NCBI GenBank assembly: GCA_006503475.1
Contig: RSEH01000030.1
Span: forward strand, 62,001-126,000
Direction: 5' to 3'
DNA length: 64,000 nucleotides
Source of the DNA: Stentor roeselii
Lineage: Eukaryota > Ciliophora > Heterotrichea > Heterotrichida > Stentoridae
Positions 3,263 through 61,570 of the stretch are shown in pieces (position 1 is the first letter of the stretch; every line of letters starts with the position of its first letter). Position numbers and translations under genes: made by a program. The notes beneath the pieces were generated by a model. It made no database searches. It worked only from the letters and a program-made list of their open reading frames with translations, and was not told the DNA's origin.

Positions 3263-3335
3263 TTTATTATGAATGAGTCAGTTGCTTGTTATAGTGGAAG
3301 GTAGTATTATTAAGGAGGTTTATAAGTAAATTTCA

Positions 3336-8925: not shown

Positions 8926-11900
8926 TTATAACTTAGGAAATTCAGCGAGAAGGGCTCGTTTTAGTTCGTTCATTGCTCCGATTTTTTTTATAAAGGGGAC
9001 TTTGCGGAAGTTGCCCAGGTGTTCGACATGTTCTTCTAATATCGAGTTATTCACGTACCTGTCTTCAAGTCTCACTTCTCGAACAGTCTTCCCAGTGACT
9101 TGAATAATTCCCATTTCTTCCCAAGTCTGTAAAGAATGCTTGATCCAGACCCTTGAACAAGACTCATAAAATCCCAAAGTCCTTTCTTCAACCAGGTTCT
9201 CAACAAACCACTGAAGACTCAACTGCAACTTCTCGTATTGAATTGACTGATCCTTGCAAATTGCAGAGCAAAAAAGAAGGGTGCTCCAGTAAGTGTCGAC
9301 TATTGGCCAGACAAAAGAACATAAAAAGTTAATCGCGATTCCTGAAGTCCTGGAAAGAGTTACAAGTCCTTCTTTTTCACTGATAAATCCTCGATTTTTC
9401 AACAGGTTTAAAATATTTTCGATTCCTTTTCGACCGAAACTTAAATCTCTGCATTCAAATTCGTGTTTAAGAAAAGTTGTAAGAAATTCTGACTCTTCTA
9501 TGATCCTTGCAATAGGAATTCCTTCATCAAAAGCGAGAGTTTTACCGAAACTGTTTATTGTGCAAGTGACAAGTGACTCAAGAATGAAGACATTATGAAG
9601 AAAACTGCGGTAATAAGCAAGTAGCAGGATTTTTTTGTTGTCATTTGAAATTCCGATACGATTGTTGAATAAGTCTTTTCTGTTGACTATCAAGTTGTTC
9701 ATTAAAGCGAGTGAGTCCTTGACAGCGATTTGAGCGCCTCCCTTGTCAAGTCCACTGACCTTGAACCCTCTGTTTTTGACTTCATCCTGGACCCACTCGA
9801 CTTGGCTGATGAGGTCATCTTCTCCAAGAGTCCTTCTAGTGATTAACAAGACACTGGCAACGATAGAAGTCGGCATCACGATGGAAGACTCTTGAAGTCT
9901 ATACATGATCTCATAAGCCAATCGGTCAAGAATCAAGTTTTTTTCTATTCCCTGTGAAAATTGTTTCAGAGAAATCGGAGGAGAATGAGAAATATGAACT
10001 TTTCCGAAGTTTTGCTTCATTACTCGAAAAGTTTGCATCAGGTTCCAAATCGAGTCTTTTTCTTTGAACTCTCCTAAAAGCTCAAGAGGAAGACTTTCAC
10101 CTTCAATGACCCGGTCGTAGTTGATTGTGATAGGAACGAAGATGATGTCTTTCACTTCTCCTTCGAAGTAAGGAGTCGTGCAAATTGAAAGCAGTTCTTT
10201 TCTTGGATGCATGATTTTTCCAGTTCTACTGCGATGACCTTCAATAAAGAACTCTATGATTTGGTTATCAATAAGGAGAAGACTCATATATTCAGTTAAA
10301 ATTGATAAAAAAAGCTCATTTTTTAAGTTTTTGTTTTCAATGAAAAAACCTCCCGTCATTCTCAGGATTTTGTTGATAAGACTGACAGATAAGAACTTTT
10401 CACTTGTTGCAGTGTAAGGAGTTTTTATGTTGTAAGCGAAAAGAACGTAGTTCACGATTATCATGTCGAAGTAACTTCGGTGAGACGGCACGAAGACTAT
10501 CGGGTCTTTGGAGCTGCTGATGAACTTCTGCAAAATCGTTAAAGCTCCTTCGTCGACTACTATTTGCTCGAATATCGACCTCCAGACCTTCTTGAAAATC
10601 CAGGCCATTGACTGGATCACTGGAACTCGCACGTTTGCGAATAAGGAATCCATTATTTTTGATGACTCGTTGTTTAGGTTATGTATTGAAGCTTGTTGAG
10701 TTTTGTTTGAGTCTTTATTTGCTAGTTCTAGGATTTTGTTTTGGACTCTTGAAGAATTTAATACTATTGACTTTATGTCTTTTAGTCTACGGGTTAGAGT
10801 TGAGGATCCTCTTTCTAGTGCCCAACGAATGTCTGAAAAACTTGAGGAGGCTAGAAGGTCCCAGTTCAGGTCCATGTGTTCGAGTTTTAAGTTGCTCATG
10901 ATTGGCTCTTTTAATACATATCTTTTAATCCCACATATGAAGTTTGCAATATAAATCTTCCATTCAATAACACCTGGATCTAATTGAAATCTTGAAAGTT
11001 CCTCTGGTTTCAGCATTCGTATCAAATTGATTGAGTTTTGTGTGGAAAAAATCCATTCGTGTAGAGCGAAAGGAATAAAATATTGCAGTTCCATATTATC
11101 TTTTTTTATTGAGTTTTGAATGCGCTGGGACTCTTTAAATAAAGACTTATTTCCTGTCAATTGAGCGTAGCCCATAGACACCATCATAGGAATTTTTTTC
11201 GTAACAGTGACATAACCATGATACAAGTTCAAATAAGGAGTAAGTAAAACTCCAGGTTTCGAAACAGCCTTTTCAGGTGGAAACTTGATCCAAGTGGCAG
11301 TAGCGATATTTTTAACAGCTCCCCAGGTAATAGGATTTCTAGAAGAAGAGCCAACCTGGACAACAAGCGGTGCAGCAGGCTTACAATAAAAAGCAGCGGC
11401 ACAAATAATAGTATTACAAACCAAGTCAACAGGAACAATATCACAGACCTTATCACCTCGAGCGACAGCAATCTTCGTCCCCCCCAGTCCAACCATAAGC
11501 ATCAACCCGGTGATCGTCAAAGTCGTATCAACCCAGCCGGGCAGAGGCTCGTTCAAAGCAGCTCCAATCAAAGAAGAGCGAACAATGCACAAAGGAGCTC
11601 CTTTCGCCTCATCCGCAAGAATCAATTCAGTTAAAATATTAGAAAATAAATTTTTGTTCTTTTGTCTTCCCATTAATTTCGGAGTTTTCCGTAAAAGTTC
11701 ATCTGGACTTAGTTCCATGATTTCTTTTAACAAGGCTCTTGGGTCTTTTTCTGGCTTGTAAAGCTTTTCCTCGATCCACCCTTCGCTTTGGTTCATATTC
11801 ACGTATGCGGATGAGACGTGGATAAATGCTTGAAGACTTTTGAATCTTTTTGATAGGGCGAAAAGTTTTAAAGTGCCTAAGGTGTTGACTTGAATCGCGT

Positions 11901-12276
11901 GTTGAAGGGAAAGAGATGAGTCTGTGTTTCCGAAAGCGTTTATCACGATTTCCACGTTTTCGACGAGCTTTCGCTCGTCAGAAGAAGAGGTGATGAGGGA
12001 GTCTTTTGTAAGGTCCCAACCGATTGGAACGATTTTCTTTCGAGCTTCTTCCCAGCCTGCTTGTCTTAAACGGGTGAAACATTGACTTTCGAGGATTTCC
12101 ATGTTAAACCTTTCGTCGATACTCAGACCTTTGACTTGTCGGATTAGCAGGTAGACTTTTTTTATCTGGGGAAGAGCGAATAAAAGCTTTTCTGTTATCA
12201 CTTTGCCTAGAAAACCTGTCGAGCCAGCAAGAAGAATCGACTTTCCAGCGTAAAAGGAGTCTAGCATTTTTTTCAA
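8926..12276 (-). CDS. FARAT: Fatty acyl-CoA reductase fused to DHAP acyltransferase (FARAT type)
   Basis: A 1,116-residue fusion. The N-terminal half is a fatty acyl-CoA reductase: NAD(P)H motif AGSTGFLGKVI (about residue 17), the VSSAYVN catalytic tyrosine region, VPVDLV, and a FAR C-terminal domain to about 480. The C-terminal half is a DHAP/GPAT-type acyltransferase with all four motifs: HRSYFD (about 598), GGFFIENKN, EGHRSRTGK (about 681) and FVPITINYD. The two reactions give fatty alcohol and acyl-DHAP, the two precursors of ether lipids. From memory, a fusion of this kind (TtFARAT) has been characterised in Tetrahymena. The last three residues are PKL, which fits a peroxisomal PTS1 signal. 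Upstream (12301-12420) the coding strand is almost free of G. Confidence 0.93.
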   Translation of the reverse strand: MKKMLDSFYAGKSILLAGSTGFLGKVITEKLLFALPQIKKVYLLIRQVKGLSIDERFNMEILESQCFTRLRQAGWEEARKKIVPIGWDLTKDSLITSSSDERKLVENVEIVINAFGNTDSSLSLQHAIQVNTLGTLKLFALSKRFKSLQAFIHVSSAYVNMNQSEGWIEEKLYKPEKDPRALLKEIMELSPDELLRKTPKLMGRQKNKNLFSNILTELILADEAKGAPLCIVRSSLIGAALNEPLPGWVDTTLTITGLMLMVGLGGTKIAVARGDKVCDIVPVDLVCNTIICAAAFYCKPAAPLVVQVGSSSRNPITWGAVKNIATATWIKFPPEKAVSKPGVLLTPYLNLYHGYVTVTKKIPMMVSMGYAQLTGNKSLFKESQRIQNSIKKDNMELQYFIPFALHEWIFSTQNSINLIRMLKPEELSRFQLDPGVIEWKIYIANFICGIKRYVLKEPIMSNLKLEHMDLNWDLLASSSFSDIRWALERGSSTLTRRLKDIKSIVLNSSRVQNKILELANKDSNKTQQASIHNLNNESSKIMDSLFANVRVPVIQSMAWIFKKVWRSIFEQIVVDEGALTILQKFISSSKDPIVFVPSHRSYFDMIIVNYVLFAYNIKTPYTATSEKFLSVSLINKILRMTGGFFIENKNLKNELFLSILTEYMSLLLIDNQIIEFFIEGHRSRTGKIMHPRKELLSICTTPYFEGEVKDIIFVPITINYDRVIEGESLPLELLGEFKEKDSIWNLMQTFRVMKQNFGKVHISHSPPISLKQFSQGIEKNLILDRLAYEIMYRLQESSIVMPTSIVASVLLITRRTLGEDDLISQVEWVQDEVKNRGFKVSGLDKGGAQIAVKDSLALMNNLIVNRKDLFNNRIGISNDNKKILLLAYYRSFLHNVFILESLVTCTINSFGKTLAFDEGIPIARIIEESEFLTTFLKHEFECRDLSFGRKGIENILNLLKNRGFISEKEGLVTLSRTSGIAINFLCSFVWPIVDTYWSTLLFCSAICKDQSIQYEKLQLSLQWFVENLVEERTLGFYESCSRVWIKHSLQTWEEMGIIQVTGKTVREVRLEDRYVNNSILEEHVEHLGNFRKVPFIKKIGAMNELKRALLAEFPKL

Positions 12277-14680: not shown

Positions 14681-17600
14681 CTATAGTAATCCTAGTTTTT
14701 CTTTCATGCTTGCTAGGGTGCTCTCGATTTCGTAGTTTTGATCTTCGATTAAAACTGTGGCTTCTTGGATTTTTTTAGATTCAGCTTCTAAAGTAGTTTC
14801 ATATTCATCACAAAGTTTATTCATATTCTTAAATTTCATAGTAATCAAAGTATAATCTTCAACTTCTTCATCATTTTCATCTCTAACAAAATGAATAATT
14901 CTTTTGCAGTCATCATCTTTTCTCCAAAACATCATCATTTCAACCTCAAGTATCATTTTCGTTAATTCCTTTCCATCCGCAACAACTTGATTTTCTTTAA
15001 CCCTGCTGTAAGTATCCGACAAAATACTAATCAGCAAATTAAGCATAATAATAAAGTTGAATAAAGTAATTAAAACATAAAACAGCCATTGAAGTTGACT
15101 CAAATCTTCAAACCCTGAATTTCCTAATGTAGTCGAGTAAACCCTAATAAGCAAAGGCCAGTAATAATCCTGAGGTTCTCCTAAAGCATAAAAAATAAAG
15201 CTAAATGCTAAAATTGCATAAAAGAAAATAACCATGAAAGCCGGTATATCTTTAAAAACCTCAAAAATCAAGTTAATCAAGTACCTGACTTCACTAAAAA
15301 TCCTGAAATAAGTGATTCCCCTGACCCAAGAAGCAAGAATAATAAGAACCAGGTAATCCGAGTCATTTTTCAAGTACCCTAACCAAGCCAAAATGACATA
15401 CCCAAAGAAAAGGAAAGACCTTGCCAAATCAATAAGATTCCACCAGTCCTTAAAATAATCCCATCCTCCAGAGTAAAGTTGATAACCTTCATAACAACTA
15501 AGAGCAATGCTAAACCCAGTCGGCAATACTAAAAAGTCATCATTATAAACCTCAACAGTGGCAAACCAGGTAAGACTAAAAAGGTAAAAAAAGTAAAGAG
15601 AAGTCTGAAAGTACATCACAATCCTCGCTTCTTTCCATTTTTCCTCCAATATCAACCTCACCAGTCGAGTCTCAAAAATCGTATCATTTTTCGTGTTCAA
15701 AAGACTTTCTAAGAACTTGATACTCTGACTAGACCCAAGCGTAACAAAGACCTCGAAACAAGAATGTTCAAAGATAACTGCAGTGCCGTCTAAAGTATTC
15801 GCAGTGAGACCTAAAACCTCTTTCGAGTTAACTTCCATGGTCTTGCTATAAGAGACCAGAGGCAGTTCAACATCAGAAACGAAATTCGGAAGATTGTTGA
15901 AATAATGTCTTCTAAATCCAAATTCATACAACTTGCTCAGCCCGTCAAGGCCTGACTGGTTCAGAGCAATTAATGAATCAGTGACAGTGACTAGACTGTA
16001 AGGGTTACTAGGCCATCTATTTTTCATGCATTTTATTGCAATTTTAGCACATTCTGGGAAGTCCTGCTCGAGAGCAACTGATAAAATCGTGTGACCGTTT
16101 GTCGACCTCACGTAAGGCGCGCAGATTGACTTGGAATCATCGGCTTGAGACCCGAGCAAGGCCTGGGTGAGGAAGTCCTGATAGTCAAAATAAGCATAAA
16201 GGTGTTGAACTGAAAGTTTAAAAGGCATGATGAGCCAGTTATGAAATCTTCCATCATATTTCACTTCTTTTCCTGAAACGATTTTTCTGATATAGTCAAA
16301 GAAAGTTTTTTCTAAGTTGCTGACGTCATCTCCAATGATTTTAACGTGCTTTGTGTTAAGAGGACTCTCGAAACATTCAGATTTTCCTTTGTACTTCACT
16401 GCCATTAACTGGTTTCCACAGAAGAAGGTGCAGGTTTGAATGGACTTGAAGGTCATGCTGGACTTTAAGTCGTAATCAGCCAGGTCCCAGATGTCGAGGC
16501 CGTTTTCATTTTGAGTGAGCAGATATCCAGTTGCAGGAAAGAGTAAAATCCTTTTAGAAGGACGGGAAAGAGAAACATTTCTTATCATCACGCATTGAGT
16601 GATACTCCAAAGCAGGAAGTTCGAGTCAGTCACAATGATTAACTTGGAACAGTCATCCGTGCATTTCATGTCATTCACTTTTCCTTCAAATTCATCAATT
16701 TCAGCAAGTTCATTTCTTTCTTTATCGTTTGTCATGTATTCTATCACTATTTGCTTCACTGTGTCTTTTCCTTCTTTAGGACCAGCTGAAAATAAGAATA
16801 TGTTAAAGGGTGAGATGCAGACTTGGTAAACGTTTCCATCGTGATAAAGTTGAGAATTGATTTCTACAGGTTTTTCTCCCATCAGGAAAGTTGTGATGTT
16901 GTACATGCTGCCGATTGAAAGGTACTTCTTGTCTTGGCTTAAAGTAACTGAAACCATTTCTCCAGCAACAAAAGAAAATTCAGTTGAAGGCTGTGAAAAG
17001 TCATTCAAGTTAAAAACTTGAACTTTGTAGCTGAAACGAGTCTCAGTGATCGCCGTCTGGCTGAAGAGATAAAGAAAATAATCTCGAGTAATAAGATACC
17101 TATAATGTTCTGGCAATTCATACGAATTTTCCTTCTTCCCTGTCCCATCCCAGTAGTCAACTCTTTTAGAAGAGACTCCTACAAGTTTATCACCGATTCC
17201 AACGAACTCTTCAGCATCACAACTTGAGATTTTTTTAACTACTTCGAAATGAGGAATTTTCCACCTCATTGCCCTGCTGTCATCTGAGATTGATATGATG
17301 AACTGCTCGTCAGGGGTCAAGGCTAAAGACCTGATGGGCGCCTCGTGTCCTTCAAGTGATAAGGAAGGCCTGTCTGCTTCTGTCTGAATGTGCCAGATGT
17401 AAACTTGCTTGTTGTCTCCTGCTGTTATCATCAGAGACTCGTCTATTGTTATGTCTATCGCGTTCACTGCTGCCTTTCCTCGAAAGACCTTTCGAATCAC
17501 CCAGTCTCCGAAGGACCATAAAATAATCTCACCTCGAACGTCTCCTGTTGCAAGTAATTTGTTTGATGTACTGAATTTCAATGTGTTTATACCGTGGTTT

Positions 17601-18304
17601 GCTTTTAAAGTGGAAAGGATACGGCCTGAATCTTCACCTTGGGAGAATTGGATCTCGTATATTATGCAGACACCGTCTTCTGAACCGCTGGCTAGATATG
17701 CATTGTTTGAGGATAGGTCCATGGCTTTTAGAGGGGCTGAATGATTAAAAAGATCCTTAGTACCCTCCTGTCCTTCTTTAATCACCCAGAATTTGACTGA
17801 GCCATCATCAGAAGCCGAGACCATCCACTCATTACTGGGATTGACAATCAAAGCATTGACAGTTCCAGAATGACCCTCAAAGCTTTTCAAAGGTTTAAAT
17901 GTTTCAATGACATAAGAGTAGATTTTATTATCAGACCCTCCTACAAACAAGAGTTTTTCATCAGGTGAGATGCTGAGAGCATGCAAAGAAGACTCACAGA
18001 CCTGAGAGTCCTTAAGAATCATCTGCTCCTTCAAGTCAACAATAGCGATTTTTCCTTCAGTTGAAGTAACAGCGAAGTATCTGTCACCTTTCATCACTTT
18101 CAAGTTTGTTGCTTGCAAGAACAAGGCTATTGAAAGTGGAGCACTTTCCGATAAATACGAGGTAACCATTGAAAACTCATCATCTACTGATTTAAATGAT
18201 AATAAATCAATCTCCTGGCCTTTCTTGTAGACTGATTTTTGACGAGCTGACCCTTGAAGAGATTTATTCCATGGAATATTGTCCATCAAGTTTCCCCAAG
18301 ACAT
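14681..18304 (-). CDS. WD40-repeat/TRP-like ion channel fusion
   Basis: The protein has 1,207 residues. Residues 60-370 contain clear WD40 repeats (for example SGTVNALIVNPSNEWMVSAS and APIRSLALTPDEQ) and residues 370-680 look like a second, weaker propeller. About 690-780 is a linker with ankyrin-like helices (NGHTILSVALEQDFPECAKI). The C-terminal third, about 885-1100, is a six-helix channel domain of TRP/polycystin type: S1 around YFQTSLYFFYLF, S2-S5, a pore segment TTLGNSGFEDL (about 1058), and S6 FNFIIMLNLLISILSDTYSRV. A cytosolic coiled-coil tail follows. It probably forms a cation channel gated or anchored through the WD40 part. Animal TRP channels carry ankyrin rather than WD40 repeats, so the architecture is unusual; ion selectivity is unknown. 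Confidence 0.9.
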   Translation of the reverse strand: MSWGNLMDNIPWNKSLQGSARQKSVYKKGQEIDLLSFKSVDDEFSMVTSYLSESAPLSIALFLQATNLKVMKGDRYFAVTSTEGKIAIVDLKEQMILKDSQVCESSLHALSISPDEKLLFVGGSDNKIYSYVIETFKPLKSFEGHSGTVNALIVNPSNEWMVSASDDGSVKFWVIKEGQEGTKDLFNHSAPLKAMDLSSNNAYLASGSEDGVCIIYEIQFSQGEDSGRILSTLKANHGINTLKFSTSNKLLATGDVRGEIILWSFGDWVIRKVFRGKAAVNAIDITIDESLMITAGDNKQVYIWHIQTEADRPSLSLEGHEAPIRSLALTPDEQFIISISDDSRAMRWKIPHFEVVKKISSCDAEEFVGIGDKLVGVSSKRVDYWDGTGKKENSYELPEHYRYLITRDYFLYLFSQTAITETRFSYKVQVFNLNDFSQPSTEFSFVAGEMVSVTLSQDKKYLSIGSMYNITTFLMGEKPVEINSQLYHDGNVYQVCISPFNIFLFSAGPKEGKDTVKQIVIEYMTNDKERNELAEIDEFEGKVNDMKCTDDCSKLIIVTDSNFLLWSITQCVMIRNVSLSRPSKRILLFPATGYLLTQNENGLDIWDLADYDLKSSMTFKSIQTCTFFCGNQLMAVKYKGKSECFESPLNTKHVKIIGDDVSNLEKTFFDYIRKIVSGKEVKYDGRFHNWLIMPFKLSVQHLYAYFDYQDFLTQALLGSQADDSKSICAPYVRSTNGHTILSVALEQDFPECAKIAIKCMKNRWPSNPYSLVTVTDSLIALNQSGLDGLSKLYEFGFRRHYFNNLPNFVSDVELPLVSYSKTMEVNSKEVLGLTANTLDGTAVIFEHSCFEVFVTLGSSQSIKFLESLLNTKNDTIFETRLVRLILEEKWKEARIVMYFQTSLYFFYLFSLTWFATVEVYNDDFLVLPTGFSIALSCYEGYQLYSGGWDYFKDWWNLIDLARSFLFFGYVILAWLGYLKNDSDYLVLIILASWVRGITYFRIFSEVRYLINLIFEVFKDIPAFMVIFFYAILAFSFIFYALGEPQDYYWPLLIRVYSTTLGNSGFEDLSQLQWLFYVLITLFNFIIMLNLLISILSDTYSRVKENQVVADGKELTKMILEVEMMMFWRKDDDCKRIIHFVRDENDEEVEDYTLITMKFKNMNKLCDEYETTLEAESKKIQEATVLIEDQNYEIESTLASMKEKLGLL

Positions 18305-40773: not shown

Positions 40774-41610
40774 ATGATAGAAGACCTCAAAAAAGAACTC
40801 GAAAGACTCAACAGCATTCAAGAAATCTTCACCAGCGACAACAAAAGAATCGAGAACAAACTAAACGAGCTACACAAGCGTAAAAACAGTCTAACCCAAA
40901 TGTACAACCCATCTAAAGTCGAAGCCCTAAGTGAAAAGTACCGAAAGCACGCAAAAGACGAAGAAGAGTTAAAAAGAATAATCTACGAGTACCAACTAGC
41001 AATAGACTACTTAAAAAGTCGTCACAATTCAATCCTAAGCAATCAAAGTTTGTATCATTCTCCCTCTTCTCGTGAAATGGGTTCTTTCGACATGGACAAC
41101 ATCGAAAAAGAACTGGCAGAGGAACAGGGCAACTTGAGTTATCAACGCGAAAGACTCAAAAAATTCACAAATATTTTTTCAGTCTTGCAAAACATCAAAA
41201 AAGACGTGGCTCAGCAAATTGAACAGAAAAAATTCGTAGTTGAAAAAGGGGTTCGAGGACTTGATGACTTAATTGATCGACTTGAATTTCTGAGGGATTT
41301 GGAACTTTTAGCGAATAAAATACTTGAAAAAGTTCATTATTTTGATGAAATTGAATTCGAGGAAAGAAAAACTGTTGAATGCTGGAATCATCATTTGAAT
41401 ACTATTGGAAGGAAAAATAGTATTGAGAAAAGGGCTTTTTTGAAAAGGGATGAAAAGGGTACTTGGGAGGAAATGAATGAAAAGGTTGTTAGGAATGATT
41501 TGGAAAGTAAGGATGAGTGGTTTAAGGGTTTTTTGGAGGTTTTTAATCATGAGAAAAGTATGAGTTTTGTTTTTGTGTTGTTGGTGTTTCTAATAGTTTT
41601 AGTGTTATAG
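40774..41610 (+). CDS. Tail-anchored coiled-coil protein
   Basis: A 278-residue protein. Coiled coil runs from residue 1 to about 95 and again from 105 to 200. The last 14 or so residues, SFVFVLLVFLIVLVL, form one hydrophobic helix with nothing after it, the layout of a tail-anchored protein such as a SNARE, golgin or GET-pathway client. The helix is short but adequate. The middle part is reminiscent of SNARE-like or syntaxin-like bundles, but I see no Q- or R-SNARE zero-layer residue that I would trust. A role in vesicle tethering or ER/Golgi membranes is an inference from topology only. Confidence 0.75.
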   Translation: MIEDLKKELERLNSIQEIFTSDNKRIENKLNELHKRKNSLTQMYNPSKVEALSEKYRKHAKDEEELKRIIYEYQLAIDYLKSRHNSILSNQSLYHSPSSREMGSFDMDNIEKELAEEQGNLSYQRERLKKFTNIFSVLQNIKKDVAQQIEQKKFVVEKGVRGLDDLIDRLEFLRDLELLANKILEKVHYFDEIEFEERKTVECWNHHLNTIGRKNSIEKRAFLKRDEKGTWEEMNEKVVRNDLESKDEWFKGFLEVFNHEKSMSFVFVLLVFLIVLVL

Positions 41611-41869: not shown

Positions 41870-44800
41870 ATGAGCAAATCTCAAATGTTTACATCATTGC
41901 TCTCTCCAAAGCCAGGAAAAGTCCCAGGTGGTCCTCCCAGTTCAGACAAGTCACAAGTCTTTAAATTTTCAGAGCCTCTAACAAGTAAGTCCCAATCTCA
42001 AAGCAAGTTGAAGTTCATTCCCGCAAGTCATTCATCAGCGCTTCAAGAGCTTTCAATAGAATTTTCAGACGCTTACGAGTTCCGTCAGAAGTGTTTCGAA
42101 AAAATCAAAGGGCTCGAAACTGTGATAGAAAGAAACCGAGCCACTTACGAGAACGAGATCAATTACATGCAGGAGTTCATTAAGTTACTCAAAAGGAAAC
42201 TTGGCAAAACCCGGGGAAGCAACGAGTCAATTGACTTGACTTGTGATGAATGCAGGGAAAAGGGAAAAATCATCAGTTCTCTTAATGCTGATTTGGATGA
42301 ACTTGAACATGACTTGAGAAACGCGGAAGGACAGAATAAAATACTTAAAAATGAAGTGTTGAGACAGAAGAAAGAATTGGAAAATTTTTATAATTTACAG
42401 AATCAGATGCAAGAATATGTTGAAATTGTTGCTGAATTGGAAGAAAATAAACAGGCTAATGAAAAAGTCATTTTTGAACTTAGGGTTGAGAATAAAAAAC
42501 TTGAAATTTTACTGAAAGAAAAAACTTTGAAATTGGAAAATGAAAGTAGTTTGAGTAGAAATCGAGAAGAAAATATCGAAATTTTAAATTTTAAGCTGAA
42601 AAATTTTGAAGTTACTTCTGAAAAATATGAAAAAATTCAAGAAAAATATGAGAAAATTCAAGAAAAATTTGAAAGTTTTCAGCAGGAATTTATCCAGAAG
42701 TGTACGGAATTAGAGGAAAATAAATTGAAACATGAAAAAATCGTTTTTGGGTTCAATTCTGAAACGAAAACACTTGAGATTCAATTGAAGGAAAAAAATT
42801 TGATGTTGGAAAAAGAAACCAGTTTGTTAGAAAGTTGTCAAGAAAATCTAAAAAATTTGAATGTTCAGCTTAAAAACTTAGAAGAAATCTCAAAGAAATA
42901 CGAAATTCTTCAAGAAACTTTTGAGTTTAAATGCAAAGAACTTGATGAAAATCGAAAAAATCATGAAAAAATTGTTTCTGAGCTTAAATTGGAATCTGAA
43001 TCACTTGAGTTTCAATTGACTGAAAAAAATGAAGTAATTGAAAGAAAAGTGGAGTTATTAAAAAGTTCAGAAGAAAATATTCAAGCTTTGGCTACGAAAG
43101 TGAAAAATTTAGAAGAAATCTCAGAAGAATTTGAAATTTTTAAGAAAAATTTTGAAAAAGTTTCAGAAAATAATGAAAACCTACAAAAAAATCTTGAAAA
43201 AATCTCAAGTCACAATGAAGCACTTCAAGAAAAACTTGAAAATATCTCAGAACAATACGAAAATCTTCAAAAAGACTTCAAAGAAATCACAGAAAATAAC
43301 GAAAATCTTCAAATAAACCTCGAAAAAATCACAGAAAATTATCAAAGTCTTCAAAAAGACTTCCAAGAAAAGTGCAGAGAACTTGCTGAAAATAAAGAAA
43401 ACTATGAAAGTGTTCTTTTTGATATACAAAAGCAAAAAAAATCACTTGAAACCCATCTGGTCGAAAAAACACAAGAATTCGAAAAAGAGTCAAATTTGCT
43501 AAAAATTTCAGAAGAAAATCTTCAAATTTTATCATCCAAGTTGAAAACCTCTCAAGAACTCTCAGAAAATCACCAAAATCTACACGAAGAAGCTGAAGAA
43601 AAACGAAAAGACCTTGAGAAAACCAAAAAACTTCTTGAAAACCTGATCTTTGAACTTAAAGTCGAAAACAAAAAACTCGAAATTCAACTAACAGAAAAAA
43701 GTTTCCTTCTGGAAAAAGAAACCAGTTCATTAAAAACATCAGAAGAAAATCTTCAAATTTTTACCACGAAATCGAAAAACCTCGAAGAATCTTTAGAAAA
43801 ATACGAAAACCTAAAAAACACTTTAGAAGAAAAATGCTCAGAACTCGACGAAACCAACAAAATAAACGAAAAAATCATTTTCGATCTAAAACTAGAAAAC
43901 CAAAATCAAGAAACCCATCTAAAAGAAAAATCCTTCAAACTTGAAAAAGCCGAAAACCATTTAAAAAACCAAGAAGAATCCCTTCACCTCCTAACCCTAA
44001 AGCTCGAAGCACAAGAAGCCACCTCATCATCCTTAAAAGTCCTTCAAGAAAAATTCCACGACAAATGCAAAGAACTTGAAAAATTGCAGTCAATGTTCGA
44101 AGACTTCATTTTCCGATTCCCAGACCTTTTATCAAAAGAAGACCCGATTCCTTATTTAGAATCAACCTCATTCGATGCGACATCTCACGCGATTCACCCA
44201 GAGCACTTATCACAAATCGAGCACGATCTTTCAAGACTCCTTGAAGAAAAATCAACTCTTAAATACCTGGACATGGTTCAGTCCCTTCTCGAAAAGCTTC
44301 GAAATCTGCTGACTGAAAACCAGTCTTTAGCCTCTTCTCTTAAAATTTACCAGCGCGACCTTAAAATTCATTCAGAAAACCTTTCTGAGATCCAAGTCGA
44401 GCAAAATCAACTACTTCGGGAAAACTCGACTTTGATGCAATTTAATGAGAAGTCAAATTTTGAAGTTCAAAGTCTTCAGACCCAGGTGCAAGAGCAGGAC
44501 TGTTTAATTGAAAAACTTAGAAGTTTATTAGAAAAAAAATCTGCTGAACTTCATAAGTTTGAAGAAATCATGCAAGAGTATCTCTCTGGAAATGAAAAAA
44601 TTAAAACTGTTGAACCTCAAGTACCTGTTGATGATGAAAGCTCTGCAAGGTACCTTGGGATTATTAAAGATTTGACTCTTAAACTTAGAAGTGCCATGGA
44701 AAAAAGTGAAAGACTTTTAATGGAAAAGAATGAACTTGGTTTAGAGATTCAACAACTTGTTAGTCAATTAAAGGTCCAGGCTACGGAAAATGAATTTGAA

Positions 44801-47800
44801 GAGCTTAGGGGACAGGTGAAGAAGGTTGAACCTTTTGTTAAAACTTCGAATAAATATGTTCAAACTTCGAATCACCAGGAAAAGTTAAGAAGTGAAAGTA
44901 GAGATTTTGGAAATGGACAAAATTTGAGGTCTTTTGAAATGCCTTTGAGGTATCAGGATTTAAATCCGAGAGCTAGGCTCACACCTCCCAGGCAACAGTT
45001 TGCAAGAACTTGGAACCCTTCAGAGTCTAGGGATGATTTGAGATATGCGAGTCAAGACCCGATGATTAGGAGGCCTTTTCAGGGAAGGTATGTTGAAGAT
45101 GACTGGCCAAGGCCCTCAGCATATCAAAAAGATGAAAACCTTAGGTACTCTATTAGAAGAGAAGACCCAGGCAGATTCAGAGAAAATCCAGAAGACTACT
45201 ATCGAGGCCGTAGATTCAATCCAGAAGAAAATCCGGAAGACTACTATCGAGGCAGTAGATTCACAGAAAATCCAGAAGAAAATCTTAGAGATTATCCAAG
45301 AAAACATCTGAGAGATAATCCAACTGAAGACCCCGAAGACTATCATCGAGTTTATCCAGACTCAAGAATAATAAGCCAAAAGATTCCCAATCAATCAAAT
45401 CTCCGCTTTCAAGATGATGAAGACTTGCATCATGACCCTAGATCATCAAGACTACCTTATGAATCTCACATGACAGATACAGATTACCCTGAATATTCAC
45501 TTCCTCAGTCCTACAGCTACGCTCTTAAAGATAAAGGACAAGAAAAAGCTTGTTTCTATCCAAAAAATAAAGACTCAACTTTTGACGAACTTGATGAAAC
45601 CCGTCACAGAAGATCTGATGATCTTGAAGAAAGACCCGAAAGATCCAGAGGGCTTGCCGCAAAAAAATCAAAGGGTAAAAACCTCCGCAATTCCAGAGAG
45701 CGAGAACCATACTTGCCACAAGAGCGAGAATCACACTTTTCACGAGAGCGAGAACCTTATTTGTCAGGCCAAGGAGAATTTTATAGAGAGAGGGAGCAAG
45801 AACCTTATAAATCAGCTGAGTTTCTACCATATATGTCTGCAGGGCATGAAAAGTCTATACCGAGGCAGGAGTCTTTAAGAAATAAAGAACACGAAAGGTT
45901 TTACACAGATGAGCAAGATTCGTACGGACCTAGAGATATAGAGCTGAATACACCAATAGAACAAAATTTGTACAGGGACAGAGAATATGATGAAAAAAGA
46001 CCAGGAGAAAATTTCAAAAAAATGAGAAAAGAAGACTTTACTGGGGCAAGAGATGAAGACTTTCATAAGCCAAGAAATGAAGACTTTCATAAGCCAAGAG
46101 ATGAAGACTTTCATAAGCCAAGAGATGAAGACTTTCATAAGACAAGAAATGAAGACTTTCATAAGCCACGAAAAGAAGATCTCCAAAGACCAAGAGATGA
46201 AGATTTCAACAGATCAAGAGAAAAAGATTCTTATAAGCCACGAGAAGAAGATTTTCGTAAGCCAAGAGAGGAAGATTTTCATAGACTGAGAGAAAAAGAT
46301 TTCAGCAGGCCTAGAGAAGAAGATTTTTACAAGCCAAGAGAAGAAGATTTTCACAGACCAAGAGAAGAAGATTTCCACAGACCAAGAGAAGAAGATTTTC
46401 ACAGACCAAGTGAAGAAAATTTCAGAAGGCCAAAAGAAGAAGATTTCCATAGACCAAGTGAAGAAAACTCCAGAAGGCCAAATGAAGAAGATCTCAGCAG
46501 GCCAAGAGAAGAAGATTTTCATAATCCACGAGAAGAAGATTTTCACAGACCAAGTGAGGAAAATTTCAGAAGGACAAAAGAAGAAGATTTCCACAGACCA
46601 AGTGAAAAAAATTTCAGAAGGCCGAAAGAAGAAGATCTCAGCAGGCCAAGAGAAAAAGATTTTCATAATCCACGAAAAGAAGATTTCCACAGAACAAGAG
46701 ATGAAGATTTCCAAAGGTCAAGAGAAGAAGATTTCAGCAGGCCAAGAGAAGAAGATTTCAGCAAGTCAAGAGAAGAAGATTTCAGCAGGCCAAGAGAAGA
46801 AGCTTTCCACAGACCAAATGAGGAAATTTTCAGAAGGGCAAAAGAAGAAAATTTCCACAGACCAAGAGAAGAAAATTTCAGAAGGGCAAAAGAAGAAGAT
46901 TTCCACAGACCAGATGAAGAAAATTTCAGAAAGGCAAAAGAAGAAGATTTCCATAGACCAAGTGAAGAAAATTTCAGAAGGGCAAAAGAAGAAGATTTCC
47001 ACAGACCAGGTGAAGAAAATTTCAGAAAGGCAAAAGAAGAAGATTTCCATAGACCAAGTGAAGAAAATTTCAGAAAGGCAAAAGAAAAAAATTTCAGAAG
47101 GGCAAAAGAAGAAGATTTCAGCAAGCCAAGAGAAGAAGATTTTCATAATCCACGAAGGGAAGATTTTCAGAGACCAAGAGAAGAAGATTTAAACAGACCA
47201 AGAGAAAAAGATTCTTTTAAGCCAAGAGAAGAAGATTTAAACAGACCAAGAGAAAAAGATTCTTTCAAGCCAAGAGAAGAAGATTTTTATAAGCCAAGAG
47301 AAGAAGATTTTCATAGACTGAGAGAAAAAGATTCTTATAAGCCACGAGAAGAAGATTTTCATAAGCCAAGAGAAGAAGATTTCCAAAGGTCAAGAGAAGA
47401 AGATCCTTACAAAACTAATGATTTTCACTATCCAAGGGAAGAAGACTCTTACAGAGCTCGAGGAAAAGATTCCTATAAACCTAGAGATCAAGACTTGTAT
47501 AGAGATGATGAAAAAGACTCACACTGGCCTATAGAAGAAGAATTCTCCAGATCAAGGAAAGATGATTTCAGCAGACCAAGAGAAGAAGCCAGTTATAAAA
47601 ATAAAGAAGAGGATTCAAACTGGCCCAAGCAAGAAGATATTCACAGAGATCAAGAAAAAGATCCACGAAGGACTAAGGAAGATGATCTTCACAGATACAG
47701 ACCTGAAGCTTCAAATAAACTGAAACAAGAAGATTCAAACAGAACAAAAAGAGAAGGCTCAGCCAGGCCAAGAGAAGAAGTCTTCAGGCCACTAGAAGAT

Positions 47801-50800
47801 GAGACATTCAAGCCAAGAATAGATGATTTTCAATTGCCAAGAGAAGAATTCAAAAAAGAAAGAAAAGAAGAATTTAACAGGCTAAGAGATGAGGAAGATA
47901 ACTGGTCAGGGGAGGACTTATGCAAACCTAGAGAAAAAAATACTGAGAAGTCGATAAGACGAGAAGATCTTTATAAATCAAAACCTGAAGACTCATTCAG
48001 ACCAAATCAAGAAGAACTTTTCAGGTCAGGAGAAGACTATAATAGGCCAAGACAACCTGTTATTAGCAGGCCAAGAGAGTTTGATTCGAATAAGTCGGGA
48101 GAAGAAGGTTTAAGCAGGTCTAGACAAGAAGATTTAAGAGCACCAAGTGAAGAAAAATTTTTAAAGTCAAAAGTTGAAAACCCATACAAGCCAAGAGAAG
48201 AAGACCCTAACTGGCCAAGACAAGAAGATCCTTACAGGCCAAGACAAGAAAACCCTTACTGGGCAAGACAAGAAGAGCCTTACAGGCCAAGAGAAGAAGA
48301 CTCAAACAGGCCAAGGCAAGAAGACTCAAATAGGCCAAAACAAGAATACTCTTCCAGACCAAAACACGAAGATTCATTCAGACCTAAACAAGAAGATTCT
48401 TATAGACCTAAACTAGAAGAATCATACAGGCCACAACAAGAAGAAGATTCTTATAGACCAAGACAAGAAAATTCATTCAGACCTAAACAAGAAGATTCTT
48501 TTAAACCTAAACAAGAAGATTCATTCAGGCCAAGAGAAGAAGACTCAAACAGGCCAAGGCAAGAAGACTTAAACAGGCCAAGGCAAGAAGATTTATTCAA
48601 ACCTAAACAAGAAGATTCTTATAGACCTAAACAAGAAGAATCTTATAAACCTAAACAAGAAGACTCTTCCAGACCAAGACAAGAAGATTTATTCAAATCT
48701 AAACAAAAAGATTATAATAGACCTAAAAACGAAGACTCATACAGGCCAAAACAAGAAGAATCTTCCAGACCAATAGAAGGAGACTCATCCAGACCAAGAC
48801 AAGAAAATCCTTACAGACCTAAACAGGAAGATTCATTCAGGCCAAGAGAAGAAGACTTAAACAGGCCAAGGCAAGAAGACTTAAATAGGCCAAGGCAAGA
48901 AGATTTATTCAAACCTAAACAAGAAGATTCTTATAGACCTAAACAAGAAGAATCTTATAAACCTAAACAAGAAGATTCATTCAGGCCAAAACAAGATGAT
49001 TCTTATAGAAAGCAAGAAGATTCTTATAGACCAAAACAAGAAGATTCATTCAGGCCAGATGATTCTTATAGACCAAAGCAAGAAGATTCTTACAAAAACG
49101 AAGATTCTTATAAACCAAAACACGAAGATTCATTCAGGCCGAAACAAGATGATTCTTATAGAAAACAAGAAGACTCTTCCAGACCAAGAGAAGAAGATCC
49201 TTACAGACCTAAAAATGAAGAACCATACAGTGCAAAACAAGATGATCCATACAGGTCAAAACAAGATTACTCTTACAGACCAAAACAGGAAGATTCATTC
49301 AGGCCAAAGGAAGATGATTCTTATAGAAAACAAGAAGACTCTTTCAGACCAAAACAAGAAGACTCATACAGGCCAAAACAAGAAGATTCTTATAGACCAA
49401 AACAGGGAGATTCTTATAGACCAAAACAAGAAGATTCTTACAGGCCAAAACAAGATGATTCTTATAGAAAACAAGAAGACTCTTCCAGACCGAAACACGA
49501 AGATTCATCCAGGCCGAAACAAGATGATTCTTATAGAAAACAAGAAGACTCTTCCAGACCAAGAGAAGATTCTTATAGACCAAAACAGGAAGATTCTTAT
49601 AGACCGAAACAAGAAGACTCATACAGGCCAAAACAAGAAATCCCATATAAACCAAAACAAAATGAATCATACAGGCCAAGACAAGAAGATTCTTACAGAC
49701 CTAAAAATGAAGAACCATACAGGTCAAAACAAGATGATCCATACAGGGCAAAACAAGATGACTCTTACAGACCTAAAAATGAAGAACCGTACAGGGCAAA
49801 ACAAGATGAATCATACAGACCTAAAAATGAAGAAACATACAGTTCAAAACAAGATGACTCTTACAGACCTAAAAATGAAGAACCATACAGGTCAAAACAA
49901 GATGATCCATACAAATCAAAACAAGATGACTCTTACAGACCTAAAAATGAAGAACCATACAGGGCAAAAGACGAGGATTCTTACAGACCTAAAAACGATG
50001 ATCTTTACAGGGGAAAACAAGAGGATTTTTACAGACCTAAAAATGATGATCTATACAGGGGAAAACAAGAGGATTCTTACAGACCTAAAAATGAAGATCT
50101 ATATAAGGGAAAGCAAGAAGACTCTAACAGACCTAAAAATGAAGAATCCTACAGACCAAAAAATGAAGAACCGTACAGGGCAAAACAAGATGACTCTTAC
50201 AGACCTAAAAATGAAGAACCATACAGGTCAAAACAAGATGATCCATACAGTTCAAAACAAGATGACTCTTACAGACCTAAAAATGAAGAACCATACAGGT
50301 CAAAACAAGATGATCTATACAGGGCTAAACAAGATGACTCTTACAGACCAAAAAATGAAGAATGCTACAGACCCAAACAAGGAGACTTATACGGGCAAAG
50401 GCCTGAAGACTTTACTAGGCCAAGACAAGAGGAACTTCTCAATCCAAATCAAGATGACTTCAATCAACCAAGAAAAGAAAACTTTAACAAAGATGAAAAA
50501 GATGATTACTTGCCAAGACAAGAAAATCTTCACAGAGAAAAAGATTTATTCAGATCAAGAGAAGATTTAAAAAAGCCAAGAGAAGATGACCTACAAAGAC
50601 CTATTGAAAAAACTTACTATAGACCAAGGGAAGAATTCCTTTACAACCCAACTGATCAAGAACTCTTCAAACCAAGAGAACAACTGTTATACGGCCCTAG
50701 AGACCCTAACAGATCTCACGAAGAAGACACTAAAAAGCCAAGAATACAAGACGATACAGATCCACATACCTCCAAAGATCATCCTTCATTCAGACCTTCT

Positions 50801-51922
50801 GAATCCGACCATCAAAATCCAAGATCCCAAAAAAACCTGTCCATAAAAGACTCAAATCCTGAACCTCTCGAAAACGACCCAAAAAACCCCAACAAAAAAT
50901 CCCAAAAAGTCCCTGAAGCTTATTCATTCCACCCACGTGCATTCGAAGCGACTTATGAAGAACTTCCAGAAACCACTGAGATCATAGTCGACCTTCCATT
51001 TCCCGAAGACATGAAAAACGCTTCATCCATCGAAGAAAATCTTTCCTTAACAAATCAAAACCAAAGCCTTCCAACCTCGAAATCACCCGATTTTCACTCA
51101 AATCGATTACCTCCTCTTTCACTTCTTCATTCATCAGCGCCAGAGTCCTCAAAAGGTTTCGAGCCGATGTTTTCCTTGAGCGAGAAGCCATCACTGGAAC
51201 AGCTGCTGTCAACTTATCCACCAGACGAAATCACTGAACGACTCTTTCAACAGAACTCAGCCTTGACGTCCTCATTGAAAGAAACTCTAGAAAAAGTAGA
51301 CCAACAGCAAAGGTGCATCGAAGAGCTTCTTAACAAACTACAGTCCGTGCATTATGAAGTCCCTGAAGAAGGGAAAGAATTGGAAATTCAAGAAAATCCT
51401 GAAATAAATGAACTTCTTGCGAAAATTAAATATCAAGCTGATTTAATCTCTGAACTGGAAAATAAAAATGCTGAACTTGAAGGAAGGTTTAATCGAATTA
51501 GAGTCAAAAATAATCAACTTGAATCACAAACTAAGAAATATTCAGAAAATGTGGAAAAAGTCTTCAAAGATGTGAATAAAAAACTTCAGGTTATTGAGAA
51601 AAGTCTTGCTAATAAAGAGGAAAAAATCAAAGCGATTTATAATGATTATGCAAGGTTTAAGCAAAAGTACATCACAGGCTTTCAAGAAAAAAGCAAAGCT
51701 TTGCTGAATTCGATCATGGACCCGAAAAATGAAGAAATCAGGAATTCTTTAATGAGTCAGGACCTGGACAAGGATGATCTTATCAAACTTTTAAGGCAAA
51801 GAGTTGAATTTTTACAGGAAAAAATCGATGCACTGGTCAAATCGAACTTTATGACGAAAGAACTCATCGAAAACATCAGCGATAAAGCACATGACGCCAT
51901 TGAAATGATTAAAGTAGATTAA
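41870..51922 (+). CDS. Giant coiled-coil/octapeptide-repeat protein, 3,350 residues
   Basis: I do not recognise a known family. From the N-terminus: a basic head (1-60) and a coiled coil. Residues 186-731 hold six repeats of 77 residues (exactly 11 heptads), with 14-residue inserts in repeats 1 and 3. More coiled coil follows to about 1,000. A Pro/Arg/Tyr-rich part has short repeats such as ENPEDYYRG. At about 1,384-1,850 there is an octapeptide array with consensus REEDFHRP. An irregular part separates it from a second array at about 2,104-2,847 with consensus KQEDSYRP and the 16-mer KNEEPYRx-KQDDSYRP. A Pro-rich linker leads to a final coiled coil (about 3,120-3,345). There is no signal peptide or membrane helix. 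The ends look like fibre-forming rods and the middle like a long charged spacer. A cytoskeletal or cortical fibre role is inference. Confidence 0.92.
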   Translation: MSKSQMFTSLLSPKPGKVPGGPPSSDKSQVFKFSEPLTSKSQSQSKLKFIPASHSSALQELSIEFSDAYEFRQKCFEKIKGLETVIERNRATYENEINYMQEFIKLLKRKLGKTRGSNESIDLTCDECREKGKIISSLNADLDELEHDLRNAEGQNKILKNEVLRQKKELENFYNLQNQMQEYVEIVAELEENKQANEKVIFELRVENKKLEILLKEKTLKLENESSLSRNREENIEILNFKLKNFEVTSEKYEKIQEKYEKIQEKFESFQQEFIQKCTELEENKLKHEKIVFGFNSETKTLEIQLKEKNLMLEKETSLLESCQENLKNLNVQLKNLEEISKKYEILQETFEFKCKELDENRKNHEKIVSELKLESESLEFQLTEKNEVIERKVELLKSSEENIQALATKVKNLEEISEEFEIFKKNFEKVSENNENLQKNLEKISSHNEALQEKLENISEQYENLQKDFKEITENNENLQINLEKITENYQSLQKDFQEKCRELAENKENYESVLFDIQKQKKSLETHLVEKTQEFEKESNLLKISEENLQILSSKLKTSQELSENHQNLHEEAEEKRKDLEKTKKLLENLIFELKVENKKLEIQLTEKSFLLEKETSSLKTSEENLQIFTTKSKNLEESLEKYENLKNTLEEKCSELDETNKINEKIIFDLKLENQNQETHLKEKSFKLEKAENHLKNQEESLHLLTLKLEAQEATSSSLKVLQEKFHDKCKELEKLQSMFEDFIFRFPDLLSKEDPIPYLESTSFDATSHAIHPEHLSQIEHDLSRLLEEKSTLKYLDMVQSLLEKLRNLLTENQSLASSLKIYQRDLKIHSENLSEIQVEQNQLLRENSTLMQFNEKSNFEVQSLQTQVQEQDCLIEKLRSLLEKKSAELHKFEEIMQEYLSGNEKIKTVEPQVPVDDESSARYLGIIKDLTLKLRSAMEKSERLLMEKNELGLEIQQLVSQLKVQATENEFEELRGQVKKVEPFVKTSNKYVQTSNHQEKLRSESRDFGNGQNLRSFEMPLRYQDLNPRARLTPPRQQFARTWNPSESRDDLRYASQDPMIRRPFQGRYVEDDWPRPSAYQKDENLRYSIRREDPGRFRENPEDYYRGRRFNPEENPEDYYRGSRFTENPEENLRDYPRKHLRDNPTEDPEDYHRVYPDSRIISQKIPNQSNLRFQDDEDLHHDPRSSRLPYESHMTDTDYPEYSLPQSYSYALKDKGQEKACFYPKNKDSTFDELDETRHRRSDDLEERPERSRGLAAKKSKGKNLRNSREREPYLPQERESHFSREREPYLSGQGEFYREREQEPYKSAEFLPYMSAGHEKSIPRQESLRNKEHERFYTDEQDSYGPRDIELNTPIEQNLYRDREYDEKRPGENFKKMRKEDFTGARDEDFHKPRNEDFHKPRDEDFHKPRDEDFHKTRNEDFHKPRKEDLQRPRDEDFNRSREKDSYKPREEDFRKPREEDFHRLREKDFSRPREEDFYKPREEDFHRPREEDFHRPREEDFHRPSEENFRRPKEEDFHRPSEENSRRPNEEDLSRPREEDFHNPREEDFHRPSEENFRRTKEEDFHRPSEKNFRRPKEEDLSRPREKDFHNPRKEDFHRTRDEDFQRSREEDFSRPREEDFSKSREEDFSRPREEAFHRPNEEIFRRAKEENFHRPREENFRRAKEEDFHRPDEENFRKAKEEDFHRPSEENFRRAKEEDFHRPGEENFRKAKEEDFHRPSEENFRKAKEKNFRRAKEEDFSKPREEDFHNPRREDFQRPREEDLNRPREKDSFKPREEDLNRPREKDSFKPREEDFYKPREEDFHRLREKDSYKPREEDFHKPREEDFQRSREEDPYKTNDFHYPREEDSYRARGKDSYKPRDQDLYRDDEKDSHWPIEEEFSRSRKDDFSRPREEASYKNKEEDSNWPKQEDIHRDQEKDPRRTKEDDLHRYRPEASNKLKQEDSNRTKREGSARPREEVFRPLEDETFKPRIDDFQLPREEFKKERKEEFNRLRDEEDNWSGEDLCKPREKNTEKSIRREDLYKSKPEDSFRPNQEELFRSGEDYNRPRQPVISRPREFDSNKSGEEGLSRSRQEDLRAPSEEKFLKSKVENPYKPREEDPNWPRQEDPYRPRQENPYWARQEEPYRPREEDSNRPRQEDSNRPKQEYSSRPKHEDSFRPKQEDSYRPKLEESYRPQQEEDSYRPRQENSFRPKQEDSFKPKQEDSFRPREEDSNRPRQEDLNRPRQEDLFKPKQEDSYRPKQEESYKPKQEDSSRPRQEDLFKSKQKDYNRPKNEDSYRPKQEESSRPIEGDSSRPRQENPYRPKQEDSFRPREEDLNRPRQEDLNRPRQEDLFKPKQEDSYRPKQEESYKPKQEDSFRPKQDDSYRKQEDSYRPKQEDSFRPDDSYRPKQEDSYKNEDSYKPKHEDSFRPKQDDSYRKQEDSSRPREEDPYRPKNEEPYSAKQDDPYRSKQDYSYRPKQEDSFRPKEDDSYRKQEDSFRPKQEDSYRPKQEDSYRPKQGDSYRPKQEDSYRPKQDDSYRKQEDSSRPKHEDSSRPKQDDSYRKQEDSSRPREDSYRPKQEDSYRPKQEDSYRPKQEIPYKPKQNESYRPRQEDSYRPKNEEPYRSKQDDPYRAKQDDSYRPKNEEPYRAKQDESYRPKNEETYSSKQDDSYRPKNEEPYRSKQDDPYKSKQDDSYRPKNEEPYRAKDEDSYRPKNDDLYRGKQEDFYRPKNDDLYRGKQEDSYRPKNEDLYKGKQEDSNRPKNEESYRPKNEEPYRAKQDDSYRPKNEEPYRSKQDDPYSSKQDDSYRPKNEEPYRSKQDDLYRAKQDDSYRPKNEECYRPKQGDLYGQRPEDFTRPRQEELLNPNQDDFNQPRKENFNKDEKDDYLPRQENLHREKDLFRSREDLKKPREDDLQRPIEKTYYRPREEFLYNPTDQELFKPREQLLYGPRDPNRSHEEDTKKPRIQDDTDPHTSKDHPSFRPSESDHQNPRSQKNLSIKDSNPEPLENDPKNPNKKSQKVPEAYSFHPRAFEATYEELPETTEIIVDLPFPEDMKNASSIEENLSLTNQNQSLPTSKSPDFHSNRLPPLSLLHSSAPESSKGFEPMFSLSEKPSLEQLLSTYPPDEITERLFQQNSALTSSLKETLEKVDQQQRCIEELLNKLQSVHYEVPEEGKELEIQENPEINELLAKIKYQADLISELENKNAELEGRFNRIRVKNNQLESQTKKYSENVEKVFKDVNKKLQVIEKSLANKEEKIKAIYNDYARFKQKYITGFQEKSKALLNSIMDPKNEEIRNSLMSQDLDKDDLIKLLRQRVEFLQEKIDALVKSNFMTKELIENISDKAHDAIEMIKVD
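42425..44062 (+). repeat. Six tandem 231-nt (77-residue) coiled-coil repeats with 42-nt sub-repeats
   Basis: Repeat units begin at residues 186, 277, 354, 501, 578 and 655 of the giant protein. Units 2, 4, 5 and 6 are each exactly 77 residues, starting KCxEL or KRKDL. Unit 1 has one extra 14-mer and unit 3 has five (for example ISEQYENLQKDFKE). Every length is a multiple of seven, so the heptad register never breaks. Confidence 0.9.
46020..47410 (+). repeat. 24-nt tandem array A (REEDFHRP octapeptides)
   Basis: A nearly gapless run of 24-nt units coding variants of REEDFHRP, with sub-types such as REKDFSRP and AKEEDFHRP-SEENFRR. The unit length is divisible by three, so other frames also stay open; this explains the long antisense and out-of-frame ORFs here. 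Confidence 0.9.
48180..50410 (+). repeat. 24-nt tandem array B (KQEDSYRP octapeptides, with 48-nt higher-order units)
   Basis: 24-nt units coding KQEDSYRP or REEDSNRP variants. From about 49690 to 50350 the unit doubles to 16 residues (KNEEPYRS-KQDDSYRP). Some units are shortened (DDSYRKQ), always in frame. Confidence 0.9.
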
Positions 51923-60945: not shown

Positions 60946-61490
60946 AGATATAGATAGTTTAGATTGATTTAGTAATTGAAGATTCAAAATTAGAGGCAAC
61001 TTTCCAAGAAAATTAATATCATTAATAAAATTCTTTCATCCAAAACCTCAAAAATTGAACCTCTATAAAAAACCCTAAAACAAATTCAATTACCGACCAA
61101 CTCTCGCCATCTCCAAAAACCAATAAAGATATTCAAGACAATTTACTATTTCTTCTCTCTTTATTCTTCTATAATCAGCTATATTTATTTCCTTTCCCGT
61201 TCTATCGGTTCAAATATCTCTCCGAGAATGTTTGAATTATATTTTCAATAATCCGAGACCCCTCAGGACTTTCCCAATATCAGCAGAATCCCTAAGGCCC
61301 CATCTACGGTCTGGGCTTGATAATGTTCGAAGACCTTATGTGGCAATGCGAAAACTGGTAAAAGAATCAATATTACCACTTTTCTAACCTAAGACCCTTT
61401 AATCTAAAAATTTGATCCAAATAATGGAACTTTAATGATCAGTAAAGACAACATCAACTCTTCATCTTTAAAGCGAAAAATCAGCGAAAG

Positions 61491-61570
61491 GCTCCTCAAT
61501 GATATGAAAGGCTCCTCAATGATATGAAAGGCTCCTCAATGATATGAAAGGCTCCTCAATGATATGAAAG
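61491..61570. repeat. 20-bp tandem repeat, four perfect copies
   Basis: The unit gctcctcaatgatatgaaag occurs four times without mismatch at 61491, 61511, 61531 and 61551. The preceding bases (gcgaaag) match the end of the unit. There are no spacers. Confidence 0.97.

Follow-up and report, generated by a model that had tools for sequence, protein, structure and literature searches.

What kind of protein is built around some two hundred similar eight-residue units, and what might such a middle be for? The question is raised by positions 62,001 to 126,000 of contig RSEH01000030.1 (C213:62001-126000; these 64,000 nucleotides are hereafter the window), in which a first-pass annotation had picked out a large coding octapeptide array and proposed it as part of a new structural protein. 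We find that the gene appears to encode a giant thread-like protein whose flexible, charge-patterned middle consists of about 200 similar 8-residue units and has rod-like ends on both sides, and that selection preserves the amino acids of these units. The reading that we prefer, and to which we give about an even chance, is that of a giant scaffold protein restricted to its lineage and most likely of the cytoskeleton, whose array would serve as a long extended polyampholyte tether between coiled coils. The layout of the gene, in window coordinates, is as follows.

41870..51922, + strand: single-exon open reading frame (ORF) of 3350 residues, ATG to TAA; the genome record of C213 shows an open frame of 3369 codons
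42113..42208, + strand: N-terminal head motif LETVIERNRATYENEINYMQEFIKLLKRKLGK, residues 82-113, common to genes on contigs C167, C191 and C137
42122..44641, + strand: N-terminal coiled-coil rod, residues 85-924, with heptad periodicity
45002..46018, + strand: Pro/Arg/Tyr-rich lead-in, residues 1045-1383, weakly 8-periodic (lag-8 z 4.9)
46031..47410, + strand: array block 1, F family (REEDFHRP/KEEDFHRP), residues 1388-1847, 58 unit matches, with a 16-residue higher-order period
47411..48199, + strand: diverged array middle, 36 unit matches, register unchanged
48200..50419, + strand: array block 2, Y family (KQEDSYRP), residues 2111-2850, 94 unit matches
50420..50764, + strand: diverged array tail, 15 unit matches
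51227..51718, + strand: C-terminal helical/coiled-coil domain, with predicted helices at residues 3120-3158 and 3177-3283

The protein is encoded whole in its single ORF with no frame break, and the array shares one reading frame with both flanks, without a stop across its 1,578 codons. In a cyclic eight-column Viterbi parse the array forms one unbroken block (residues 1388-2965, window 46031-50764) of 203 unit matches, 175 of which are full 8-mers. Identity at a lag of eight residues is 0.579 over residues 1384-1847, against 0.123 +- 0.016 in shuffled sequence (z 29), and 0.541 over the Y block, against 0.103 +- 0.012 (z 38). The coding array is thus as large as first described, its two families, REEDFHRP and KQEDSYRP, reappear as the F and Y blocks, and the 'about 180 units' then counted compare with 188 (58 + 36 + 94) in the blocks that fill the extent given at the time, 46020-50410. 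Within that extent the array stands, but it continues to 50764 and is preceded by the weak 8-periodicity of the lead-in. The 'irregular spacer' described between the families did not survive: 47411-48199 is itself 8-periodic (lag-8 identity 0.243 vs 0.089, z 8.9) and in register with the array, and is therefore diverged array. Higher-order structure is superimposed on the octapeptide, with lag 16 strongest in the F block and, in the Y block, the best score of Tandem Repeats Finder at a 72-base (24-residue) period, while at the protein level the strongest lag over the whole Y block is 8. Units of odd length occur (seven residues without Pro, for example), always as whole codons. Near-identical segmental copies lie within the array (48505-48663 vs 48817-48975, 98% over 159 bases), evidence of recent exchange inside it.

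The unit does not alternate strictly between acidic and basic residues, as had been proposed, and instead runs from two or three acids through an aromatic zone to basic-Pro-basic. The claim of one aromatic per unit holds for most of the F block (50 of 58 units with exactly one Phe, Tyr or Trp) and the Y block (76 of 94), but for only 22 of 36 units in the middle and 6 of 15 in the tail. Among full units with exactly one aromatic, it occupies column 5 in 44 of 49 in the F block and column 6 in 64 of 67 in the Y block.

Comparison between full units shows that selection preserves their amino acids. The ratio of nonsynonymous to synonymous differences per site (pN/pS) is 0.48 in the F block (57 units; bootstrap range 0.39-0.59) and 0.38 in the Y block (84 units; 0.32-0.46), and is higher outside the blocks, at 0.64 in the middle (25 full units) and 0.79 in the tail (9 full units). 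None of 600 neutral simulations (100 runs at each of three rates for each of the two blocks) gave a ratio as low as that observed; mean pS in these runs was 0.27-0.55 (F) and 0.39-0.64 (Y), against 0.48 and 0.57 observed, with simulations and bootstraps computed on 400 sampled pairs and the observed pN/pS on all pairs. Control frames with a different wobble position gave pN/pS of 0.62-1.83, while the wobble-sharing antisense frame gave 0.45 and 0.43, as expected, but is interrupted by 20 and 32 stops. In the Y block selection acts mainly on the pattern of charge and aromatic class rather than on exact residues, because the class is nearly fixed (+ 0 - - 0 aromatic + small) and one-step variants tend to preserve it, in 89 of 120 cases, compared with 20 of 53 possible changes. 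Of the 84 full Y units, 83 have a basic column 1 (Lys 66, Arg 17), 79 an acidic column 3, 78 an acidic column 4 (Asp 60, Glu 18), 67 an aromatic column 6 (Tyr 54, Phe 13) and 79 a basic column 7, and Pro is replaced in 20. The design of the array, then, looks to be maintained by selection.

What would such a pattern confer? The 1578 residues of the array include 389 Lys or Arg, 434 Asp or Glu, 171 Phe, Tyr or Trp, and 161 Pro, and the chain carries many charges, nearly balanced and well mixed: the charged fraction is 0.52, net charge is -0.03 per residue, and charge segregation is 0.08 against 0.13-0.14 in shuffles (opposite charges better mixed), where the denominator is a simple fully sorted chain, so that the value is approximate and is not the published kappa. 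The array is probably unfolded, in that a structure prediction made without an alignment gave a 600-residue piece a mean predicted local distance difference test (pLDDT) score of 43.7 and four short low-confidence helices, a low single-sequence score being compatible with disorder and no proof of it. The excerpted text of a review (PMC7503639) associates good mixing of charges with chains that are expanded and coacervate only weakly through electrostatics. Because of this link, and because the charges are better mixed than in shuffles, the sequence favours the first half of the earlier phrase 'extended or condensing' spacer; condensing is less favoured with regard to charge only, aromatic contacts lying outside the argument.

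Both ends of the array were annotated as coiled coils, and this is supported, with gaps. Heptad periodicity is evident along residues 85-924 (z reaching 12.8 at period 3.5, with identity peaks at lags of 7, 14, 21 and 28) and again at 3109-3276 (z 4.0 and 5.3), but it is weak over residues 169-252 (z 2.1) and absent at 757-840 (z 0.1) and in the final C-terminal segments, 3234-3317 and 3266-3349 (z 0.1 and 0.0). A 320-residue C-terminal piece is predicted, again without an alignment, to contain a 107-residue helix, 82 of whose residues reach a pLDDT of at least 90.

On the preferred reading, the N-terminal head and rod would probably target and dimerise the protein, as suggested by the heptads and by other genes with the same head; the rod would measure about 125 nm by our estimate (840 residues at 0.15 nm), and the C-terminal helix may form a second assembly contact. 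The array, about 1,580 residues joining the two, would stay swollen and extensible, its ends an estimated 45 nm or so apart when free and as much as about 570 nm apart under tension, and could function as a long tether, as a spacer or as an entropic spring. The earlier suggestion of a contractile or cortical fibre element is speculative by comparison, as no feature of the sequence points to either site. Several points weigh against this reading. A pure spacer would need no fixed-place aromatic in each unit; the preservation of class is weaker in the F block, at 34 of 71 one-step variants against 19 of 56 possible changes; a figure legend in the excerpted review gives 0.1-0.3 as the range that favours inter-chain contacts, near the 0.08 of the array (PMC7503639); and the limits already given on the segregation and pLDDT values belong on the same side. 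The giant protein is well defined in sequence and its array is without a relative found. Were the array a selected extensible tether, it would offer a natural experiment, in about 200 variant units, on how the mechanics of a disordered chain depend on the spacing of its charges and aromatics, as well as a candidate passive cytoskeletal element of large ciliates.

The alternative that fares best, though we hold it unlikely, is that the array is made of stickers: with one aromatic and about two Arg or Lys per unit, reversible pi and cation-pi cross-links would cause it to condense or gel. The aromatic of each unit and its fixed column are what would be expected, and an artificial resilin-like polymer, (GRGDSPYS)n, with one Tyr, Arg and Asp per unit, undergoes upper-critical-temperature phase separation according to the excerpted text of a preprint (PMC10491311). 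However, a well-mixed charge fraction of about 0.5 would be expected to keep the chain swollen and to make electrostatic coacervation weaker, and the column-6 aromatic is absent in 17 of the 84 full Y units. As excerpted, the preprint also describes a disordered chain of tens of copies, whose unit is exactly 8 residues long and combines one aromatic and a paired Arg and acid with Ser and Pro; the polymer differs from the array in being man-made, in containing Gly, in having only 2 of 8 residues charged and in lacking coiled-coil ends (PMC10491311), whereas the array belongs to a natural gene with about 200 diverged copies and about 4 of 8 residues charged. The array shares what typifies the phase-separating octapeptide polymers, a regular unit of 8 residues that contains one aromatic together with Arg/acid.

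Somewhat more doubtful is that each unit is a short linear motif that docks a folded partner, one for the F block and another for the Y block, with Ser-Tyr phosphorylation as a possible switch, in a logic (not a sequence) like that of Sfi1. Preservation of the units at the amino-acid level, the different position of the aromatic in the two blocks and the central Ser-Tyr of the Y unit are all consistent with docking. Against it, no Pfam family passed its cut-off on pieces of the array, and the variation at columns 1, 4 and 6 and at Pro in the Y unit is looser than in most known motifs. More speculative again, by analogy, is that the protein might be a natural counterpart of the man-made octapeptide polymers. 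Its roughly 200 units, in two tunable blocks, would then make up an elastic spring like resilin, or a gelling one, with which a large contractile cell regains its shape, and Ser/Tyr phosphorylation might switch it; to this we attach little probability.

Growth of the repeat without selection is improbable and disfavoured. Unequal exchange could have expanded a tolerated disordered linker that has no function of its own, as might be suggested by the recent segmental copies at 98% identity, by the relaxed middle and tail (pN/pS 0.64 and 0.79) and by the restriction of the array, among the matches listed and apart from one chance frame, to this gene. Yet pN/pS is 0.38-0.48 despite high synonymous divergence, lower than in any of the 600 neutral simulations, and the 1,578 codons hold no stop. 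An assembly or reading-frame artefact is very unlikely: long arrays can collapse or be misjoined, the near-identical segmental copies make the exact copy number uncertain, and alternative frames at the locus are open for up to 524 codons, but over full units each of the five other frames is broken by stops, 4 to 74 per block, whereas the coding frame has none, and the flanks are in frame.

Where might such a gene have come from? Genome-wide searches covered a 44.4-Mb assembly of 522 contigs. All 30 listed matches to the F consensus and 29 of 30 listed matches to the Y consensus lie inside the giant gene, these counts being lower bounds. The remaining one, C209:14894-15094 (E 2.3e-6), was considered as a second array and rejected; it runs antisense to a gene of Pro/Gly/Met/Asn/Leu repeats, and we regard it as a chance frame. 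The lead-in and the C-terminus matched only themselves in the genome at E <= 0.001. The head motif is found in three other genes. As an ungapped 32-mer, it matches at 56% on C167 (score 103, against 34 for the next best elsewhere in that protein), 47% on C137 (76 against 16) and 38% on C191 (71 against 24), starting at residue 92 in the C167 gene (at least 1583 residues, cut by the contig end), residue 95 in the C191 gene (1406 residues) and residue 48 in the short C137 gene (384 residues). Queried with the C167 piece, the giant gene was recovered at E 1.8e-6, C191 at 1.3e-4 and C137 at 7.0e-4, followed by C40 at 0.13 and C1 at 0.14. The last two were left out, C1 as weak (49 against 44) and C40 for a match elsewhere in its protein (residue 209, score 57).

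A head of the type Y..QL.YMQ.YI..L+.KL marks this small gene family (loci L050, L057 and L058 on C167, C191 and C137), which we define here by a head near the N-terminus followed by a long coiled-coil-like chain; the giant gene has both. In the C167 and C191 genes the head is likewise followed by very long Glu/Lys/Leu-rich chains, coiled-coil-like by eye only, but the octapeptide array is not matched in these or in the C137 gene. Since the head recurs in three other genes and the array and C-terminus are unmatched elsewhere, the giant gene is probably a member of a small coiled-coil family to which array and tail were added separately.

The opinion that no protein of this design had been described agrees with the searches made. 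With the whole protein as query there was no Pfam family at E <= 0.01 and no Protein Data Bank (PDB) chain at E <= 0.001, and with seven pieces, the window's copy of the head among them, no Pfam family passed its cut-off, the closest on the ends being mostly coiled-coil families. Cornifin/SPRR (PF02389) reached E 5.2e-5 on the Y block and was rejected at 23.9 bits against a cut-off of 34.8. Weak PDB matches to the C-terminus (three, E 0.063-0.99) and Y block (three, E 0.014-0.21) have no common theme, nor do the 41 matches to the head profile at E <= 5 (best 0.027). The Y block, the sole piece sent to prokaryote and viral collections, gave 23 and 5 pattern matches, none confirmed. Titles and abstract openings in the literature on such repeats offered no natural protein with an octapeptide array and coiled coils.

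Three known designs were considered and set aside. Sfi1 repeats are Trp- and Leu-containing helices of the type AX7LLX3F/LX2WK/R. A centrin-binding scaffold of this kind was rejected on zero strict and zero relaxed motif matches, with 7 Trp in 3350 residues and Sfi1 absent among Pfam matches at E <= 5; a genome-wide search with PF08457 gave no match but carries no weight, having responded in none of 14 controls. Cortical proteins of the articulin/alveolin type have Val-Pro-Val-rich repeats (Pfam IMCp); the giant protein has one VPV-type match in 3350 residues, and the family is absent among its Pfam matches. ER/K single alpha-helix rods, as in trichohyalin, are long Pro-free charged helices. 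The array, with 161 Pro in 1578 residues, a longest Pro-free stretch of 29 and a longest predicted helix of 19 residues in the 600-residue piece, is not such a rod. FAZ10 of trypanosomes is reportedly repetitive. It is likened to the giant protein by description only, with no relation claimed, as very large and cytoskeleton-associated in the excerpted text (PMC5358337). Sfi1-like centrin/spasmin scaffolds of ciliate myonemes, as excerpted (PMC12661445), resemble it as giant repetitive ciliate proteins with many copies of a short unit, and differ in the Sfi1-type motif that it lacks.

A ciliate host, as the first-pass annotation imagined, agrees with the genome. Telomeric CCCTAACA repeats are present on 3 of 17 contig-end pieces (contigs C26 and C40), and genes in the window are dense, some neighbours being just 6-15 bases apart. 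The excerpted text of a Blepharisma study (PMC9942806) gives this heterotrich the CCCTAACA telomere repeat and short intergenic regions. The telomeres and the dense genes are naturally read as those of the somatic genome of a heterotrich-like ciliate. A Blepharisma-type code (TGA = Trp) was considered for the window and is unsupported. Reading through TGA gives 48 ORFs of at least 150 codons, of which 18 were dropped (17 overlie an ORF that was kept, in a different frame or on the opposite strand; the other, 111-917, has no TGA until close to its end, where the first, at 849-851, is the stop of ORF 30-851); 29 of the 30 retained are without TGA and one has it as last codon, against 176 TGG. 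TAA or TAG ends 29 of 30 long ORFs, in a count that took 30 of the 38 in the window. TGA is nearly unused across the window.

Some neighbouring genes deserve mention. Immediately upstream, ORF 40774-41610 begins like a coiled coil and has at its C-terminus a hydrophobic tail that by eye resembles a tail anchor; it is without a Pfam match. On the minus strand, ORF 8926-12267 fuses a fatty acyl-CoA reductase (PF07993, PF03015) to an acyltransferase and GPAT C-terminal region (PF01553, PF19277), and ORF 14681-18304 combines WD40 repeats with an ion-channel domain (PF00520), a combination that seems unusual and is possibly a gene-model effect. A perfect 20-base tandem repeat of 4.2 copies lies at 61486-61570.

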